Below, in pieces: positions 14,510-40,309 of a stretch of 64,000 bases of DNA. Within the stretch, counting starts at the first letter, position 1. The number at the start of each line of letters is the position of its first letter. Position numbers and translations under genes: made by a program. This stretch comes from Loktanella sp. M215 (GTDB lineage Bacteria > Pseudomonadota > Alphaproteobacteria > Rhodobacterales > Rhodobacteraceae), in the NCBI RefSeq assembly GCF_021735925.1, contig NZ_WMEA01000001.1, positions 1,704,001 to 1,768,000 on the forward strand. Reading direction: 5' to 3'. The notes beneath the pieces were generated by a model. That model saw nothing but the letters and a program-made list of their open reading frames with translations, ran no database searches and was not told the origin of the DNA.

Positions 14510-15082
14510 TCAGCCCCCAAGGTCGCTGCTGCCGTATTTCAGGATGACCGGCACGACCAGGTCTTCCTCGTCCGTCAGATGCCGGTTCAGCAGGCGTTCC
14601 ATGTCATTCAGCGACGCCTGGAAGGTTGCCGCGTTGTCCTGCAACAGGCTGCGGTCGTCCAGCCGGGACAGAACGCCGTTCGCGCTGTCCACAAAGGCGG
14701 CAAGGTGGCCGTCCAGCGCATGGTGATCCGCGTCGAGGATGTCGAACCCGCGCGCCACCCGGTCGTCCTTGGCCTGTAGTTTGGGGAAATAATAGGTGTC
14801 CTCGATCGTGTGATGCTCGTGCAGGCCGTTCACGAACATGCCGCCATAGCGCGAGACCTGACCGGCAAAGGCGCGCGCCTCAACCTTGCGGTCAAGCAGC
14901 GCCTCGGTGCCGGTCCGCATCTCGTTCATCAGGCGGCGGAACATCAGGTGGCGATCCAGCCAGAAGCGGATCAGCCCGTCAAAGCCCGGATCCTGCGTCC
15001 AACCCTGGCGGGGATAGGCCTCGACCAGAACGCGCAGGGCGTCGGGCAGGCCGTCGCGGGTTTCCAATGCCAGATCAGTCAT
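14510..15082 (-). CDS. Hemerythrin HHE-domain protein
   Basis: 190 residues with the spaced His/Glu motifs of a hemerythrin four-helix bundle: DRHLMFRR, LHEHHTIED, DADHHALD and NRHLTDEEDLVVP. These residues bind a di-iron centre in the family, with roles in oxygen, nitric-oxide or iron sensing and repair. No signal peptide is seen, so it is cytoplasmic. A GAAGGAC ribosome-binding site precedes the ATG. It stands alone, converging on the TadG-like gene. Confidence 0.85.
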   Translation of the reverse strand: MTDLALETRDGLPDALRVLVEAYPRQGWTQDPGFDGLIRFWLDRHLMFRRLMNEMRTGTEALLDRKVEARAFAGQVSRYGGMFVNGLHEHHTIEDTYYFPKLQAKDDRVARGFDILDADHHALDGHLAAFVDSANGVLSRLDDRSLLQDNAATFQASLNDMERLLNRHLTDEEDLVVPVILKYGSSDLGG

Positions 15083-33763: not shown

Positions 33764-34357
33764 TTACAGCGCCCGCCGCGCGCGCAGAGCGGCGGTGATC
33801 GTACCGTCGTCGAGGTAGTCGAGCTCTCCGCCCACGGGCACCCCCTGGGCGAGGGACGTGACAGTGACGCCGGTCAGTTGATCGGCGATGTAATGCGCGG
33901 TCGTATGGCCGTCGATGGTCGCCCCCAGTGCCAGAATGACCTCTCGCACCTCTTCCGACGTGATCCGGTCCAGCAGGCGGGGGATGCGCAACTCCTCCGG
34001 CCCCACGGCGTCCAGGGCGGACAGGGTGCCACCCAGTACGTGGTAGCGGCCCTTGAACTGCTGACTGCGTTCCATCGCCCAAAGGTCGGCGACGTCCTCG
34101 ACCACGCAGATTTCACCGTTGGCGCGGCGGTCGTCGGTGCAGATGGCGCAGATGTCGCCGGTGGCGATATTGCCGCAGTTCAGACACTCCCGCACGGTGG
34201 CACCGACACGGGTCATGGCGTCGGCCAGCGGGATCAGCAACTGGCCACGTTTCTTGATCAGGTGCAGGACCGCGCGCCGTGCCGACCGGGGGCCAAGCCC
34301 CGGCAATTTCGCCATCAGGACGATCAGGTCGTTCAGCGCCTCCGTGTCATCGGTCAT
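33764..34357 (-). CDS. recR: Recombination mediator protein RecR
   Basis: 197 residues. Helix-hairpin-helix motif [16 protein letters not shown], a zinc finger made of CLNC and CAIC, then a Toprim domain ([13 protein letters not shown]). RecR helps load RecA at gaps with RecF/RecO. Gene order dnaX-ybaB-recR on the minus strand is conserved across bacteria. A repeat element separates it from ybaB. Confidence 0.95.
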
Positions 34358-34373
34358 GGGATGTGACCGACGC

Positions 34374-34412
34374 CGGACCCTCCGGGGGGAGTATTTCAGA
34401 AAAAGCGAGGCG
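34374..34412. repeat. Rhodobacterales-type intergenic repeat, copy 1
   Basis: GGACCCTCCGGGGGGAGTATTT followed, after a short gap, by AAAAAGCGAGG lies between ybaB and recR. The same pattern (GC-rich block, G/A-rich step, TATTT, A-run, GAGAGG) recurs at about 44690-44723. Elements of this form are frequent between genes in this group. Confidence 0.55.
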
Positions 34413-34423
34413 GGGTGTCACGA

Positions 34424-34768
34424 TCAGAACGGCATCTTCATGCCCGGCGGCAGGCCGAGGCTTTCGGCGATCTTGCCCATTTCCTCTTGTGCGCGGTCCG
34501 AGGCGCGCGATTGGGCGTCCTTGATGGCGGCCAGAATCAGGTCCTCGACCACTTCCTTGTCGGACCCGTTGAAGATGCTGGGGTCGATGTCGAGACCGGT
34601 CAACTCGCCCTTGGCGGTGGCCGTGGCCTTGACCAGACCGGCGCCGGCCTCACCGGTGACGGTGATTGTGTCGAGGTTGTCCTGCATCTCGGCCATCTTG
34701 GCCTGCATGTCCTGTGCGGATTTCATCATCTTGGCCATGTCGCCAAGACCGCCCAAACCTTTGAACAT
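34424..34768 (-). CDS. ybaB: Nucleoid-associated protein, YbaB/EbfC family
   Basis: 114 residues, the standard length. FKGLGGLGDMAKMMKSAQDM and the central TVTGEAGAGLVKATATAKGEL and SDKEVVEDLILAAIKDA segments match the family, which forms tweezer-like dimers that bind DNA. A Met-rich amphipathic helix at the N-terminus and LGLPPGMKMPF at the end are typical. It lies between dnaX and recR in one transcription direction. Confidence 0.94.
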   Translation of the reverse strand: MFKGLGGLGDMAKMMKSAQDMQAKMAEMQDNLDTITVTGEAGAGLVKATATAKGELTGLDIDPSIFNGSDKEVVEDLILAAIKDAQSRASDRAQEEMGKIAESLGLPPGMKMPF

Positions 34769-34832
34769 CGTGCTGTCTCCGTTGCTGTGCTTTGTCTTCA
34801 GATACGTATGGGGCGGGTGCGGAACAAGGGTG

Positions 34833-36581
34833 TCAGCCGTCCTCGAACGGGTCCCATTCATCCTCGACCTCGGCCAGCGCGTCGCTCGCGGCCTCTTGCG
34901 CCCGGTCGGCCTCGGTGCGGATGTCGGTGATGCGGGCCTTGGGAAACTGCGCCAGCACGGCCTGCACCAGCGGGTGCGCCGTGGCGCGCTGTTGCAGGGC
35001 AGAGGCGGCGGCATCGCGGACCTCTGCGATGGTGGGCCCGCCTGCGTCGTTGCTGACGATCACAGCCCAGCGGTTGCCGGTCCAGGCCTGCAGCCGCGCG
35101 CCCAGACGTTGCGTCAGGTCGGGGGCCGCGTTGTCGGTGGGGTGGACCTCGATCTGGCCGGGTCTGTAGCTGACGAGGCGCAGGTAGCCTTCGACCTCGG
35201 TCAGCAGCTTGATGTCCCGGTGGGCGCGGATCAGGTTCACCACGTCCTCGAACCGGGCGTAGTGATGCAGCGCCTCGGTCGCCAGTTGCGGGGCGGCAGA
35301 GGCGGAGGGGCCAGAGGGGCCGCTGTGGGTGGGGGCAGGCGTGCGCGACATCGCCTGCGTCGTACCGGTCGCGGGCGCCATGCGGGCGCCGCCACCGCCG
35401 CTCGAGGGCGGTGGCGGTGTTGCGTCCTTGAGCTTGCGCACCAGATCTTCTGGCGTGGGCAGGTCGGCCACATGGGTCAGGCGGATCACGGCCATTTCGG
35501 CGGCCATCATGGCGTTGGGAGAGGCCGCGACCTCCTCCAGCGCCTTGAGCAGCATCTGCCACATCCGGGTCAGCACGCGCATCGGCAGGGCCTGCGCCAT
35601 CGACAGGCCGCGGGTCCGTTCGTCAGGGCCGATGGTGGGGTCATCGGCGGCATCAGGCGTGATCTTGATAACGCTGACCCAATGCGTGACCTCGGCCAGA
35701 TCGCGCAGCACGGCCATCGGATCGGCGCCGTCGGCGTATTGGGTCGACAATTCGTTCAGCGCCTCGGCCGCCTCGCCGCGCAGGATCATGTCGAAAAGGT
35801 CCAGCACGCGGCCGCGATCCGCGAGGCCCAGCATCGACCGCACCTGATCGGCGGTGGTTTCCCCGGCGCCATGGCTGATCGCCTGATCCAGCAGCGAGGT
35901 TGCGTCGCGGGCGGAGCCTTCGGCGGCGCGGGTGATGAGGGCCAGCGCATCGGCACTGATCTGGGCGTCCTCGGCCTTGGCGATGCGGTTCAGCAGGCCG
36001 ATCATTACCTCGGGTTCGATACGGCGCAGGTCGAAGCGCTGGCAGCGGGACAGGACGGTGACCGGGACCTGCCGGATTTCCGTGGTGGCAAAAATGAACT
36101 TCACGTGGGCTGGTGGTTCTTCCAGCGTTTTCAGCAGCGCGTTGAACGCGCTTTTCGACAGCATGTGGACTTCGTCGATGATGAAGATCTTGTAGCGTGC
36201 CGAAACCGCGCGGTAGCTGACCGTCTCGATGATGGCGTCGCGGATGTTCTGCACACCGGTGTTCGAGGCCGCGTCCATCTCCATCACGTCGACGTGGCGG
36301 CCTTCCATGATGGCCACGCAATGCTCGCAGACGCCGCAGGGGTCGGTCGTGGGGCCACCCTGGCCGTCGGGGCCGATGCAGTTCATGCCCTTGGCGATGA
36401 TCCGGGCGGTCGTGGTCTTACCCGTCCCCCGGATGCCCGTCATGATGAAGGCCTGCGCGATGCGGTCAGCGGCAAAGGCATTCTTCAGCGTGCGCACCAT
36501 CGCATCCTGACCGACGAGGTCGGCGAAGGTTTCCGGACGGTATTTCCGCGCGAGGACCTGATAGGCGGGTTTGTCTGACAT
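34833..36581 (-). CDS. dnaX: DNA polymerase III subunit gamma/tau
   Basis: 582 residues. The clamp-loader AAA+ domain has Walker A GIRGTGKTTTAR, a four-Cys zinc module (CIGPDG...CGVCEHC), DEVHMLSK Walker B and SRC sensor I. A variable Pro/Gly/Ser-rich linker lies near residues 395-430, followed by a C-terminal tau region that ends in an acidic EDEWDPFEDG. No poly-A slippery heptamer of the E. coli type was seen near the domain III boundary, so a separate gamma product is not indicated. First gene of the dnaX-ybaB-recR set. Confidence 0.95.
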   Translation of the reverse strand: MSDKPAYQVLARKYRPETFADLVGQDAMVRTLKNAFAADRIAQAFIMTGIRGTGKTTTARIIAKGMNCIGPDGQGGPTTDPCGVCEHCVAIMEGRHVDVMEMDAASNTGVQNIRDAIIETVSYRAVSARYKIFIIDEVHMLSKSAFNALLKTLEEPPAHVKFIFATTEIRQVPVTVLSRCQRFDLRRIEPEVMIGLLNRIAKAEDAQISADALALITRAAEGSARDATSLLDQAISHGAGETTADQVRSMLGLADRGRVLDLFDMILRGEAAEALNELSTQYADGADPMAVLRDLAEVTHWVSVIKITPDAADDPTIGPDERTRGLSMAQALPMRVLTRMWQMLLKALEEVAASPNAMMAAEMAVIRLTHVADLPTPEDLVRKLKDATPPPPSSGGGGARMAPATGTTQAMSRTPAPTHSGPSGPSASAAPQLATEALHHYARFEDVVNLIRAHRDIKLLTEVEGYLRLVSYRPGQIEVHPTDNAAPDLTQRLGARLQAWTGNRWAVIVSNDAGGPTIAEVRDAAASALQQRATAHPLVQAVLAQFPKARITDIRTEADRAQEAASDALAEVEDEWDPFEDG

Positions 36582-36634
36582 GGGGTGCTGCGTTCCGATC
36601 CGGTGGGTTGCGGCAATCTAGGCGCGCGCGGCGG

Positions 36635-36880
36635 TCAGAGCAACCAGAGGACAGCGCCCATCATTACTGTGGCCTCCGACAGGATGGTGGCGACGGCCTT
36701 GCGGAAGCGCCGGGGGCAATCGACCCGATGACGGCCTGCAAACCGTGGTTGGATCACGATGCAGGCGATTCACTTCGGATGATCCATGCGGCGCAGGTCT
36801 GTCGTTGGCCAAATCATGCGATCTTGGCCTCCGTCGGTGCGGCCTTGCGCCGGATCGCCCGAGGTTTGCGCCTGTGCCAT
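36635..36880 (-). pseudogene. Possible small gene split by one in-frame TGA
   Basis: An ATG at 36880 with AGAGGGG eight bases upstream opens a 36-codon frame that stops at a TGA (36770-36772). The same frame then continues for 44 more codons to a second TGA at 36635-36637. The downstream half has the high GC3 of local genes and ends in a membrane-like stretch (ILSEATVMMGAVLWLL). Joined, the frame would give 81 codons. It could be a decayed gene, a sequencing error, two tiny genes (a GTG at 36757 could start the second), or chance. An overlapping basic 29-codon frame (36903 to 36814) competes for the first half. No family is recognised. Confidence 0.3.
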
Positions 36881-36924
36881 GGACGAAGCCCCTCTTGCTT
36901 CATCCCGTGCCAAGGATCGGCCCG

Positions 36925-38373
36925 TCACATCCCCGCACGGCGCTGGTCCATGGGCGGCGCAAAAGCCGCGAGGGTCTGCACGGCCAGTTGCAGGTCCGCA
37001 ATCATGGCGGCCTCGGCCTCTGGCCTTGCGGCGGGGGGCATCCGCAGCAGGGCGCTGGGGTGCAGGGTGATCAGGACGGGGCCGTGCGGGGTGTCCTCGA
37101 TCGTGCCACGCCGCTTCATCACGGCCTTCGCGTCGCCGGTCAATGCGCCCATCGCCGTCGCCCCCAGCGCAAGCGTCAACCGGGGGCGCAGCAGGGTGCG
37201 TTCGGTATCGAGCCAGAACTTGCAGTGGCTGACCTCTGACGCGTTCGGGTTCACGTGCAGGCGCCGCTTGGCGCCTTCCTTGAATTTGAAGTGCTTGACC
37301 GCATTGGTGACATAGGCGGCACTGCGGTCGAAGCCGGCGCGCGCGGCCAGTTGGTCGAAAAGTTGCCCGGCGGGACCGACAAAGGGGGTGCCTGCCAGAT
37401 CCTCCTGATCGCCGGGCTGTTCGCCGACGATCATCAGGGCTGCGCCGTGCGGTCCGGCGCCCGGCACCACCTGTGTCGCCGGGCCATGCAACGGGCAGCG
37501 GGTGCAGCCCGCCAGACCGGCGGTCAGCAGGTTCCACGAGGCGGGCTGCGGCACCTCTTGCAGTTGCGCATGGATCCGGGCGACGCGGGCGGGTTCCAGC
37601 GTGGGGGCGGTTTCGGCCATCTCGCGCACGCGGGCTTCGGCGGTGGCGATCAGATCGGGAATATATTGTGCCTCTGGCAGATTCTTCCAGTATTTCTTGG
37701 GCATCTCTGACGTCATGGCAGAGATCTTCAGTCGTGCGGGGTTGAAGATGTTCTTGAAATAGGTGCCCCAGAGCGCCTCTGCCGCGTCTTCCGGCAGGTC
37801 CGGCTTTTCGCGCCCCTCGTGAAACGTCAGCGCGCCGTCGGTGAATTTTGCCGTGACGTCCGGTGTGACGATCATCCAGTCCATATCGGCAAAGCGGCGG
37901 GCGAAGAACGGCGCGCAGGGTTCGACCGTGTGATGCGTCGGTTCGAACCAGGCGGCAAAGCTGCGGCGCGGACCGTCGCTGCGCAGATCGCGGAAGCGCA
38001 CGAAGGCACGCATCTTGTGCTTGCACCGATGCACTGCCTTTTCCATCTGGCGCAGGCGGGCAAGGTCAGGGTCGGCGCGGTCGGCCATGATGCCCTTGTC
38101 CAGCCTAAGCCGCCAAAGCAACGCATACAGACGGGCAAAGCGCTGCGGGTCCTTGTGCCAGACGACCCACTGCGCCATCTCGACGAAATCGGCGGGCACG
38201 CGGATCGCCTGTCGGGTCGTGGGTGGCGGCATGTCGGTTGCAAACAACTCTGTCGCCGATCCGTCCCAGTCCCAGACGATGTCCTCTGGCGGCACGCGCG
38301 CTGCGAGAAGGGCACGCGCGGCATCGCGCCACGCGGCCCATGTGCCGATGCGGGGCAGGGGCACGCTGATCAT
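36925..38373 (-). CDS. DUF4130 domain fused to UdgX-type uracil-DNA glycosylase
   Basis: 482 residues. The first about 250 residues match the DUF4130 (TIGR03915) pattern, including MEKAVHRCKHKMRAFVRF and FEPTHHTVEPCAPFFARRF. The C-terminal about 210 residues are a family 4-like uracil-DNA glycosylase with an iron-sulfur Cys pair CTRC, GEQPGDQEDLAG from residue 317, and HPSALL. KRRLH at 369-373 corresponds to the KRRIH loop of UdgX, in which the His is known to bond covalently to the abasic site after uracil excision. The gene starts within a base of the radical-SAM partner's stop, so both are one operon. LexA control is likely. Confidence 0.9.
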   Translation of the reverse strand: MISVPLPRIGTWAAWRDAARALLAARVPPEDIVWDWDGSATELFATDMPPPTTRQAIRVPADFVEMAQWVVWHKDPQRFARLYALLWRLRLDKGIMADRADPDLARLRQMEKAVHRCKHKMRAFVRFRDLRSDGPRRSFAAWFEPTHHTVEPCAPFFARRFADMDWMIVTPDVTAKFTDGALTFHEGREKPDLPEDAAEALWGTYFKNIFNPARLKISAMTSEMPKKYWKNLPEAQYIPDLIATAEARVREMAETAPTLEPARVARIHAQLQEVPQPASWNLLTAGLAGCTRCPLHGPATQVVPGAGPHGAALMIVGEQPGDQEDLAGTPFVGPAGQLFDQLAARAGFDRSAAYVTNAVKHFKFKEGAKRRLHVNPNASEVSHCKFWLDTERTLLRPRLTLALGATAMGALTGDAKAVMKRRGTIEDTPHGPVLITLHPSALLRMPPAARPEAEAAMIADLQLAVQTLAAFAPPMDQRRAGM

Positions 38374-39606
38374 TCAGAACAACGTCAGCTGTTCCGGGGG
38401 CGGCGCAAAGCGCGCGCGCAGGTCAAGGCTGTCAGTCAGCCCGCCCGGCGTCCAGTCCAGTGCCGTCACGAAGGCGCGCGCCTTCTTCAGGCTTGCCCCA
38501 AGCCGCAGCAGGTCGTCATAGCGCAGCGTCCGGTGACGGCGTGTCGTCAGGATGCGGTTCACCGTCTTGGTGCCGAACCCCGGCACGCGCAGCAGCATAT
38601 CACGCCCGGCCCGGTTCACGTCCAGCGGAAACAGGTGCCGGTTCTGCAGCGCCCAGGCAAGCTTTGGGTCAATCTCCAGATCCAGATTGCCGCCCTGGGC
38701 GACCGATGTGATCTCGTCCACGCCGAACCCGTAAAACCGCATCAGCCAATCCGCCTGATACAGCCGGTGTTCGCGCATCAGGGGCGGCTTGATCAGGGGC
38801 AGCTTGGCCGTGCTGTCGGGGATCGGCGAGAAGGCGGAATAATAGACACGCCGCAGCTTGTAGTCGCCGTAAAGCGAGGTCGATCGGGTCAGGATCGTCG
38901 CATCCGTGGCGCCGTCGGCGCCTACGATCATCTGCGTCGACTGCCCGGCGGGGGCAAAGACAGGGGGGCGCTTGCCCGTGTAACTACGGTCCTTGGATGC
39001 GGCGCGCGCGGTGCGGACATTGCCCATCGCCGCCCGGATCGTCACCGGGTTCTTTTCGGGGGCAAAGGCCTGCACGCTGCGGTCCGTCGGCAGTTCGACG
39101 TTGATCGACAGGCGGTCGGCGTAAAGCCCCGCCTCTGCGATGATCTCGGGGGCGGCATCGGGGATCGTCTTGAGGTGGATGTAGCCCCGAAAATTCTCGA
39201 CCGTGCGCAGGCGCTTGGCGATGCGGACCATGTCGGACATCGTGTCATCCGGGTTGCGGATCACGCCCGATGACAGAAACAGCCCTTCGATGTAGTTGCG
39301 GCGGTAGAATTCCAGCGTCAGGCTGACGACCTCGTCCACGCTGAACCGGGCACGCGTCACGTTGGACGACACCCGGTTCACGCAATAGGCGCAGTCGTAG
39401 ATGCAGAAATTCGTCATCAAGATCTTCAGCAGACTGATGCAGCGCCCGTCGGGGGCGTAGGCATGGCAGATGCCGGACCCTTCGGTGCTGCCCAGCCCCT
39501 TGCCGTCGCGGCTGTCACGCCGGGTTGTGCCGCTGGACGCGCAGGATGCGTCATAGCGGGCGGCGTCCGACAGGATCGCGAGTTTCTGGTGCAAGGTTTG
39601 TGCCAT
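38374..39606 (-). CDS. Putative DNA modification/repair radical SAM protein (TIGR03916 type)
   Basis: 410 residues from the ATG at 39606. A radical SAM CxxxCxxC site is at Cys68, Cys72 and Cys75 (FCIYDCAYC), set in the family's characteristic surroundings (LAILSDAARYDASCASSG at the start, HLKTIPDA, and DRLSINVELP). The C-terminus has a helix-hairpin-helix-like LLRVPGFGTKTVNRIL, suggesting DNA binding. Its substrate is unknown. In other bacteria it is nearly always next to a DUF4130 gene, as here. Earlier in-frame ATGs at 39615 and 39630 lie inside the LexA box and promoter, so the start at 39606 is preferred; it would be leaderless. Confidence 0.85.
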   Translation of the reverse strand: MAQTLHQKLAILSDAARYDASCASSGTTRRDSRDGKGLGSTEGSGICHAYAPDGRCISLLKILMTNFCIYDCAYCVNRVSSNVTRARFSVDEVVSLTLEFYRRNYIEGLFLSSGVIRNPDDTMSDMVRIAKRLRTVENFRGYIHLKTIPDAAPEIIAEAGLYADRLSINVELPTDRSVQAFAPEKNPVTIRAAMGNVRTARAASKDRSYTGKRPPVFAPAGQSTQMIVGADGATDATILTRSTSLYGDYKLRRVYYSAFSPIPDSTAKLPLIKPPLMREHRLYQADWLMRFYGFGVDEITSVAQGGNLDLEIDPKLAWALQNRHLFPLDVNRAGRDMLLRVPGFGTKTVNRILTTRRHRTLRYDDLLRLGASLKKARAFVTALDWTPGGLTDSLDLRARFAPPPEQLTLF

Positions 39607-39642
39607 GATGTTCATGGTATGTTCGCGCATGGATCATGACAA
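39604..39642 (-). promoter_or_regulatory. LexA-controlled, apparently leaderless promoter of the radical-SAM/udgX operon
   Basis: On the minus strand: -35 TTGTCA (39637-39642), a 17-base spacer, -10 TACCAT (39614-39619), then 7 bases to the ATG at 39606. The perfect direct repeat GAAC-N7-GAAC (39610-39624; GTTC-N7-GTTC on the plus strand) covers the -10. That repeat is the known LexA box of alphaproteobacteria. LexA bound here would block the polymerase and DNA damage would release it. Confidence 0.8.
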
Positions 39643-39776
39643 GTGCAATCTCGGTCAGCCAGGCAAATGTCGCCGGAATACTGCAGCAGTTCGGTTTCCC
39701 GCGCGCGTCCCTGCCTGCTCTTCCCTCGCGGCTCAGGCGGTCTCATTCGGATCGCGGCTTTCTCGTCTGCGCGTGA
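39636..39776 (+). CDS. Possible 46-codon gene divergent from the LexA box
   Basis: The ATG at 39636 lies 12 bases beyond the LexA box and opens a frame with high GC3 ending at a TGA (39774-39776). It would encode a short, basic, uncharacterised peptide. No ribosome-binding site is seen and two other frames are also open over part of it, so this is tentative. A second short plus-strand frame (39831-39944) overlaps the neighbouring minus-strand gene and is not called. Confidence 0.2.
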   Translation: MTSAISVSQANVAGILQQFGFPRASLPALPSRLRRSHSDRGFLVCA

Positions 39777-39877
39777 CCGATCAGTGATGTTGGCTGCGCT
39801 TTGCGACGGCCCCTCCGGGGCGGCCCGAAAATGCGGGCGGAGCCTTTGAAAGCGCTTCAGCGATCGCGAAGTGGACG

Positions 39878-40081
39878 TCAGATTCTGGAGCTGTTCGGAT
39901 CCGATCTGCCGCAGCTCCACCGCTTGATCCGCCAGTTCGGATGACCTTCGGACCACATTGCAAGTTGTCCGGGCGCACCATTCATGCAGGCCATCACGGG
40001 CATGTCTGCAAACAGAAGGTGTTCGGTTTTACATTCCTGTGGCGCCGTCGACAGACAGACCAGAAAGACAAGTTCAATCAT
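39878..40081 (-). CDS. Small uncharacterised protein, 67 residues
   Basis: Starts at 40081 after a good AGGAG six bases upstream. The sequence opens with a hydrophobic IELVFLVCLST, followed by a Cys-bearing CKTEHLLF, then ACMNGA, HPNWRIKRWSC, which resembles a small conserved family in Rhodobacterales of unknown function. The spaced Cys residues suggest a disulfide-linked, exported fold. Function is not known. It stands alone. Confidence 0.55.
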   Translation of the reverse strand: MIELVFLVCLSTAPQECKTEHLLFADMPVMACMNGAPGQLAMWSEGHPNWRIKRWSCGRSDPNSSRI

Positions 40082-40285
40082 CTGAAACTCCTGAAAACGG
40101 AATTGATGTGCCGACGATGCTGCAGGTGCGAAGGTGACCCCAAACGAAAACGTCCGAAGTGCTGCGGCCAGCGATGCGGATCGCCTGCCGTTGCTCAATC
40201 CTTCAGCATGGTGATCTGGCAAGTGACATAGCGTAAAGCCGCGCTGCGGCGAGTGGACGGCCTGGCCGTCCCTTGTCGCTGTCTT

Positions 40286-40309
40286 GCGGACCAGCCTTGG
40301 CTGGTCCGC
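40286..40309. terminator. Stem-loop after the ene-reductase gene
   Basis: GCGGACCAGC-cttg-GCTGGTCCGC is a perfect 10-bp stem with a 4-base loop, located 9 bases past the stop codon of the minus-strand gene. No T-run follows. Confidence 0.65.

Follow-up and report, generated by a model that had tools for sequence, protein, structure and literature searches.

Probable LexA-Regulated Radical-SAM/DUF4130-UdgX Cassette with a Predicted Leaderless Promoter in Loktanella sp. M215 and Other Alphaproteobacteria

Genomic Organization of the Cassette

The analyzed window is a stretch of 64,000 nt from Loktanella sp. M215 (NZ_WMEA01000001.1, positions 1,704,001-1,768,000), and the coordinates of its features, as in the first-pass annotation of this DNA, are window positions. 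It carries on the minus strand two adjacent genes, preceded by a putative operator and promoter:

36925-38373, minus strand: fusion of DUF4130 (TIGR03915) and UdgX (TIGR03914), 482 aa, assigned by profile matches
38374-39606, minus strand: radical-SAM protein TIGR03916 (rSAM_link_UDG), 410 aa, 574.9 bits at a cut-off of 343.5
39606, minus strand: predicted transcription start at the A of the ATG (leaderless), deduced from the -10 spacing and the conserved distance between box and ATG
39610-39624, minus strand: putative LexA operator (SOS box) GAACATACCATGAAC, a direct repeat GAAC-N7-GAAC
39614-39619, minus strand: predicted -10 element TACCAT, inside the LexA box
39637-39642, minus strand: predicted -35 element TTGTCA, with a 17-nt spacer to the -10 element

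The ATG of the fusion gene immediately follows the stop codon of the radical-SAM gene (TGA/ATG junction). The start of the latter at 39606, rather than at the upstream in-frame ATG 39630, agrees with the N-termini of its relatives, whose own starts were chosen by script as the nearest ATG, and only the three bases ATC separate GAACATACCATGAAC from this codon. The coordinates previously assigned to the box, the promoter and the ATG were re-read from the sequence and all proved to be right. The cassette is located directly upstream of dnaX (TIGR02397/PRK09111), on the same strand and with a gap of 343 nt (region 33764-39606), and the same-strand ORFs that follow dnaX are presumably YbaB-like and RecR-like. 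Upstream of the cassette, a small ORF on the minus strand (39878-40222) may encode a real small protein.

LexA Boxes in the Loktanella Genome

The operator GTTC-N7-GTTC is given as the Caulobacter LexA motif in Table 1 of PMC9578287. The bare GAAC-N7-GAAC pattern has two matches in the window, compared with a mean of 1.75 in shuffled sequences, the second of them (14585-14599) lying within an ORF of 190 aa; in the 5.2-Mb genome it occurs 118 times vs. 95 times for the reversed control pattern. At such a near-chance frequency the string alone is no proof, and the case for a LexA operator is made by position and conservation. The lexA gene of the same genome, which was identified by eye from its protein sequence and not by HMM, is preceded by GAACAGGGATAGAAC with the box start 49 nt before its ATG, and the recA gene (TIGR02012) has GAACAGACCAAGAAC about 100 nt upstream. 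Thus, the GAAC-N7-GAAC type is the one used by the Loktanella genome.

Some further boxes were seen in genome G000. Overlapping GTTC-N7-GTTC repeats with an 11-base period occupy C1:333159-333184, with no ORF of at least 80 aa overlapping or closely following them. The smaller contigs also have boxes of the GTTC-N7-GTTC type, with spacers rich in AT (C4:37170, C4:186150, C5:3042, and C5:53485), which possibly mark SOS genes of secondary replicons.

Conservation of the LexA Box in Alphaproteobacteria

The compared loci comprise every place that matches TIGR03916 above its curated cut-off in three overlapping genome draws; places below the cut-off were left out, which concerned 16 of 41 matching genomes in the class draw and 15 of 99 in the phylum draw. 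The gene is present above the cut-off in 11 of 41 relatives, 25 of 385 genomes of the class, and 84 of 398 genomes of the phylum, so the cassette has a sporadic distribution. The pooled set contains 78 alphaproteobacterial loci (the window's own included) and 29 loci from non-alphaproteobacterial Pseudomonadota, and the related genomes among these counted loci are not independent of each other.

A perfect GAAC-N7-GAAC on either strand is found within 200 nt upstream of the cassette in 77 of the 78 alphaproteobacterial loci, compared with a shuffled mean of 0.47 (maximum 4 in 500 shuffles) and with 3 of 1229 control windows of the same loci. Counted by genus, the box is present in 42 out of 43, and in the genus of the window all nine genomes of the relatives draw, its own included, have it just before the start. 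The only missing case, locus L045, belongs to a 1.5-Mb genome (G222), in which LexA is represented by partial C-terminal matches (residues 85-201 and 85-164 of 203, both below the cut-off). Thus, the one locus without the box is in a genome that yielded no full-length LexA; this assembly is 92% complete, so its lexA gene could also be absent from it. The first-pass annotation had recognized an alphaproteobacterial LexA box before the radical-SAM cassette and had proposed that homologous cassettes be searched for it; both the position of the box and its conservation in these loci confirm that reading.

In PLSDB, 158 plasmid records, including 58 from Phaeobacter, carry a relative of the radical-SAM gene; the three copies that were read among the 158 (from Phaeobacter, Sulfitobacter, and Paracoccus) all keep the partner gene and the LexA box, with the box start 17 nt before the ATG. 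One of ten phage records was read, namely L272 from the record "Acinetobacter phage MD-2021a"; glyS and glyQ lie next to the cassette there, and by its appearance the record is a bacterial contig, not a phage.

Lineage-Specific Operators Upstream of the Same Gene

None of the 29 non-alphaproteobacterial Pseudomonadota loci has the alphaproteobacterial box. CTG-N10-CAG is located within 200 nt upstream in 24 of them (mean of 1.7 in shuffles; 38 of 459 control windows), and the strict form CTGT-N8-ACAG in 19 (shuffled mean 0.09). Three genomes of one non-alphaproteobacterial genus (G681, G487, and G763) encode a full LexA and have neither box before the cassette; G731 has a LexA match below the cut-off and no box, and the Psychrobacter-like genome G470 has a partial LexA match (residues 83-202, below the cut-off) and no CTG-N10-CAG. 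A palindrome TCTCAT-N3-ATGAGA, which precedes the cassette in the former three genomes (L273-L275), was considered as an operator and rejected, since a single exact match per genome is unlike a regulon motif.

A scan of named genomes listed the 80 loci most similar to a Psychrobacter-like first sequence, so that this sample is weighted to Moraxellaceae and Bacteroidota; exclusion of L189-L193, L208, L248, L249, L255, L262, and L266 left 69 Bacteroidota loci. Within 100 nt upstream of these listed loci, CTAA-N5-TTAG was found in 21 (vs. 9 of 3998 control windows) and GGA-N5-TCC in 16 (vs. 95 of 3998 control windows). At least one of these two published Bacteroidetes LexA motifs is present in 37 of the 69 loci, and neither was found within that distance in the other 32. 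GGA-N5-TCC is also present at L262, outside the 69, in a metagenome-assembled genome labelled Saccharospirillaceae. Four Chryseobacterium cassettes (L194-L197) have GAAC-N7-GAAC at -42 to -63 and not the two Bacteroidetes motifs. In the eight Moraxellaceae loci (L189-L193, L248, L249, and L266), the four patterns are missing from the 150 nt upstream, apart from one relaxed CTG-N10-CAG at -134 of L191; Acinetobacter is, to our knowledge, without a canonical LexA.

The occurrence of differently designed operators before the same gene in each lineage is hard to explain except by selection for LexA control. Together with the box type shared by this genome's own lexA and recA, it upholds the link to LexA and the SOS response that had been proposed from the window alone, and these sequence comparisons make it highly probable that the cassette is a LexA-controlled SOS operon. 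If GAAC-N7-GAAC were instead a chance string or the site of another regulator and the cassette stood outside the SOS response, the shuffle-like count in the window and the small genome-wide excess over the reversed control would be as expected; such a reading, however, leaves aside the 77 of 78 alphaproteobacterial loci, the lineage-specific LexA operators elsewhere, the boxes at lexA and recA, and an SOS assignment published in PMC8565304, and we consider it extremely improbable.

Promoter Architecture and Predicted Leaderless Transcription

The predicted promoter is the sole sigma70-like site in a scan of 36500-40300 (shuffles, mean 0.2), with a weak -10 element, since TACCAT has 4 of 6 consensus matches. 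Its geometry was compared in the 63 of 78 alphaproteobacterial loci that have a GAAC-oriented box within 130 nt, leaving out 14 loci with the GTTC orientation only and one boxless locus. At -18 from the box start, 21 of the 63 loci have TTG (mean 1.77 and maximum 6 in 2000 rotations); these 21 come from 12 genera and thus are not independent. TA is present at box positions +5/+6, the expected beginning of a -10 element, in 47. This TTG/TA pattern is that of a predicted promoter with a 17-bp spacer and the -10 element inside the operator.

In 41 of the 63 loci, the distance between the box start and the first in-frame ATG is 16-20 nt (17 nt in 27 of them). These short-distance loci, which represent 20 genera, have TTG at -18 in 18 cases and TA in 36, and the other 22 loci (18 genera), in which the ATG is more than 20 nt away or lacking, have TTG in 3 cases and TA in 11; a Shine-Dalgarno-like stretch is found in 8 of the latter. 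Thus, the promoter-on-operator geometry tracks an ATG that coincides with the expected start of transcription, which is what a leaderless transcript predicts, and the longer-distance loci form a second group of cassettes that is, by these motifs, built differently. The idea that promoter and operator also overlap where the ATG is further downstream was dropped, given that both elements are mostly gone there. The short-distance loci have hardly any room for a Shine-Dalgarno sequence, so its absence from them is weak evidence. In the 14 loci with a GTTC-oriented box, several of the boxes are about 100 nt upstream, and promoter overlap and a leaderless start are therefore not universal.

The leaderless promoter described in the first-pass annotation is supported as a predicted start by the ATG distance and by the -35 and -10 elements conserved in the short-distance loci, and a leaderless transcript beginning at 39606 is quite likely. 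Alternatively, LexA might bind a real box and, from its place at the start codon, act as a roadblock to transcription from an upstream promoter that gives an ordinary leader. The weak -10 element would suit such an arrangement, as would the 22 longer-distance loci with their 8 Shine-Dalgarno-like stretches; on the other hand, no other promoter-like site was found within 36500-40300, the TTG with the exact 17-bp spacer exceeds every rotation and falls in short-distance loci in 18 of its 21 occurrences, and in each of the three plasmid copies read the box start and the ATG are 17 nt apart. We judge a roadblock with an ordinary leader to be improbable and retain the leaderless start.

Radical-SAM Protein and DUF4130 as the Core of the Cassette

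The CX3CX2C motif of the radical-SAM protein (C68/C72/C75) is identical in 188 of 188 aligned rows, and C22, C47, H48, and C56 are invariant in the same rows. The six invariant cysteines suggest two Fe-S clusters. The two-cluster layout of the lipoyl-synthase type has three N-terminal cysteines besides CX3CX2C, which C22, C47, and C56 fit in all 188 rows; in the structure model, the residues 20-57, where these extra cysteines sit, have pLDDT <50. At its C-terminus the protein has what we take to be a helix-hairpin-helix-like motif, and PF12836 is precomputed for the homologue P0047. The radical-SAM profile gave no sequence match in the PDB at E 0.001, and the PDB matches of the fusion profile are confined to its UdgX part; the list of structural relatives of the fusion protein is likewise filled by UdgX.

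The radical-SAM and DUF4130 genes are almost always found together: TIGR03916 and TIGR03915 are each present above the cut-off in 25 of 385 class genomes, 24 of them in common. The radical-SAM gene without a partner is at a contig end (G069). In the apparently decaying cassette of G206 (L065 and L114), only a C-terminal part of the radical-SAM gene is left (65.6 bits), next to a shortened DUF4130 gene. UdgX is not fused to 7 of the 25 DUF4130 genes of the class, the shortened gene of G206 (L114) being an eighth case, and a UdgX above the cut-off is encoded elsewhere in the genome in 2 of these 7. Many members of TIGR03915 are without a UDG domain, as noted by NCBI. Since the pairing of the radical-SAM protein with DUF4130 is near-complete and UdgX is often missing, the former two constitute the core. 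The cassette was rightly described as a radical-SAM gene followed by a DUF4130-UdgX fusion, but UdgX is not an essential part of it, and an obligatory role of UdgX was rejected as the leading view.

The UdgX domain of the window has its motifs intact, namely motif A GEQPGD at 317, the R-loop KRRLH at 369, and motif B HPSALLR at 438. In PMC10359453, UdgX is defined by GEQPG, KRR-x-H with the crosslinking His, and HPS; by these motifs and its fold the domain is a UdgX, with predicted covalent crosslinking to uracil-DNA. In three families, the UdgX domains of L105, L107, and L111 are without all three conserved Fe-S-type cysteines and keep motif A, the R-loop His, and motif B; they possibly represent a cluster-free UdgX.

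UdgX could be the business end of the cassette, in which SOS-induced excision or trapping of uracil would be aided by the radical-SAM protein and DUF4130, for example in dealing with the UdgX-DNA crosslink. The intact motifs agree with this, and the related operon described in PMC8565304 is regarded there as a putative UDG-based excision-repair system; nevertheless, the unfused DUF4130 genes, few of which have a UdgX elsewhere, and the near-constant pairing of the other two proteins argue against it, and we find this reading rather unlikely.

Proposed Model and Its Implications

The proposed model, in which the radical-SAM/DUF4130 pair is the core, is built on the sequence, its conservation, the gene pairing, and the presence of the motifs. 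In undamaged cells, LexA bound at 39610-39624 would cover the -10 element and abut the start of the sigma70-type promoter, so that RNA polymerase could neither bind nor start. DNA damage would lead to RecA-stimulated cleavage of LexA and thus free the promoter. A leaderless mRNA, beginning at the ATG 39606 or within a few bases of it, would then be translated into the radical-SAM protein and, via the junction of the two genes, into DUF4130-UdgX. The radical-SAM protein is predicted to bind an auxiliary cluster in addition to the SAM-binding [4Fe-4S] cluster, and with DUF4130 it may form an obligate core for chemistry on a damaged or altered DNA base; the optional UdgX would excise uracil and crosslink to the resulting abasic site, either capping the site or tethering the core.

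We put forward the chemical part, i.e., a core that acts on a damaged or altered base with UdgX for capping or tethering, as a tentative proposal. The earlier suggestion that the pair repairs or processes damaged DNA is likewise an extrapolation from domains and regulation. A bolder version is possible and, in our judgment, doubtful: the radical-SAM/DUF4130 pair would be an unrecognised direct DNA-repair or base-modifying enzyme, a two-cluster radical-SAM protein that works on a base of damaged DNA, stays part of the SOS response by means of at least four different LexA operators, and is optionally pinned by UdgX to uracil or abasic sites.

Control by DNA damage emerges as a near-constant trait of the cassette in Alphaproteobacteria that is common in other lineages too, and it opens a family of uncharacterised radical-SAM enzymes to direct experimental tests. 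If true, a leaderless promoter whose -10 element is covered by the operator next to the start codon would be a compact SOS switch with sharp repression. With six cysteines invariant and UdgX dispensable, the focus shifts from uracil excision to the radical-SAM/DUF4130 core.

Comparison with Known Systems

Full-text literature searches found no source that combines LexA, alphaproteobacteria, and UdgX, and among the matches listed none has UdgX alongside LexA or radical SAM. The main text of the D. shibae study mentions no radical SAM, uracil or glycosylase, and that of the Caulobacter 2025 study no radical SAM or uracil. In the portions of the literature covered by these searches, we found no description of the promoter layout, of how widely the operator is conserved, of the pattern of six cysteines, or of UdgX as an optional component.

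The radical-SAM protein of the window has 10-17% identity to lipoyl synthase (human LIAS 8trw and others), HydE, and biotin synthase, and its region beyond about residue 312 is outside the alignments with them. A shared core is expected for any radical-SAM enzyme. COG4277 is presumably the same radical-SAM family as TIGR03916, which fits the Bacteroidetes motifs found upstream of 37 of the 69 listed Bacteroidota genes.

In PMC8565304, a two-gene operon COG1573-COG4277 is placed under both Bacteroidetes motifs as a putative UDG-based excision-repair system, and an earlier report of a UDG-based repair system under SOS control in Verrucomicrobia and Alphaproteobacteria is cited. The SOS control of such operons is thus already in print, so that the tie to the SOS response made in the first-pass annotation is supported as a LexA link but is not new. 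The COG1573-COG4277 operon resembles the window in having two genes, a UDG and a partner, under LexA control; it differs in that the window has a DUF4130-UdgX fusion, and no counterpart to the operator position at the ATG, on a promoter that is presumably leaderless, was met in the available part of that paper.

LexA control has also been suggested for Clostridium acetobutylicum CAC3343-CAC3344 (PMC3828012), which belongs to a Firmicute; the partner is described there only as of unknown function. DUF4130 is predicted in PMC3765255 to be an enzyme related to mutagenesis, with links to radical-SAM photolyases and UDGs, and a radical-SAM gene of the same name is up-regulated in desiccated Acinetobacter (PMC13130816). 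The UdgX of Mycobacterium smegmatis (6ail and others) is the structural counterpart of the window domain; unlike it, the UdgX of the window is fused behind DUF4130 and is encoded in an operon with a radical-SAM gene.
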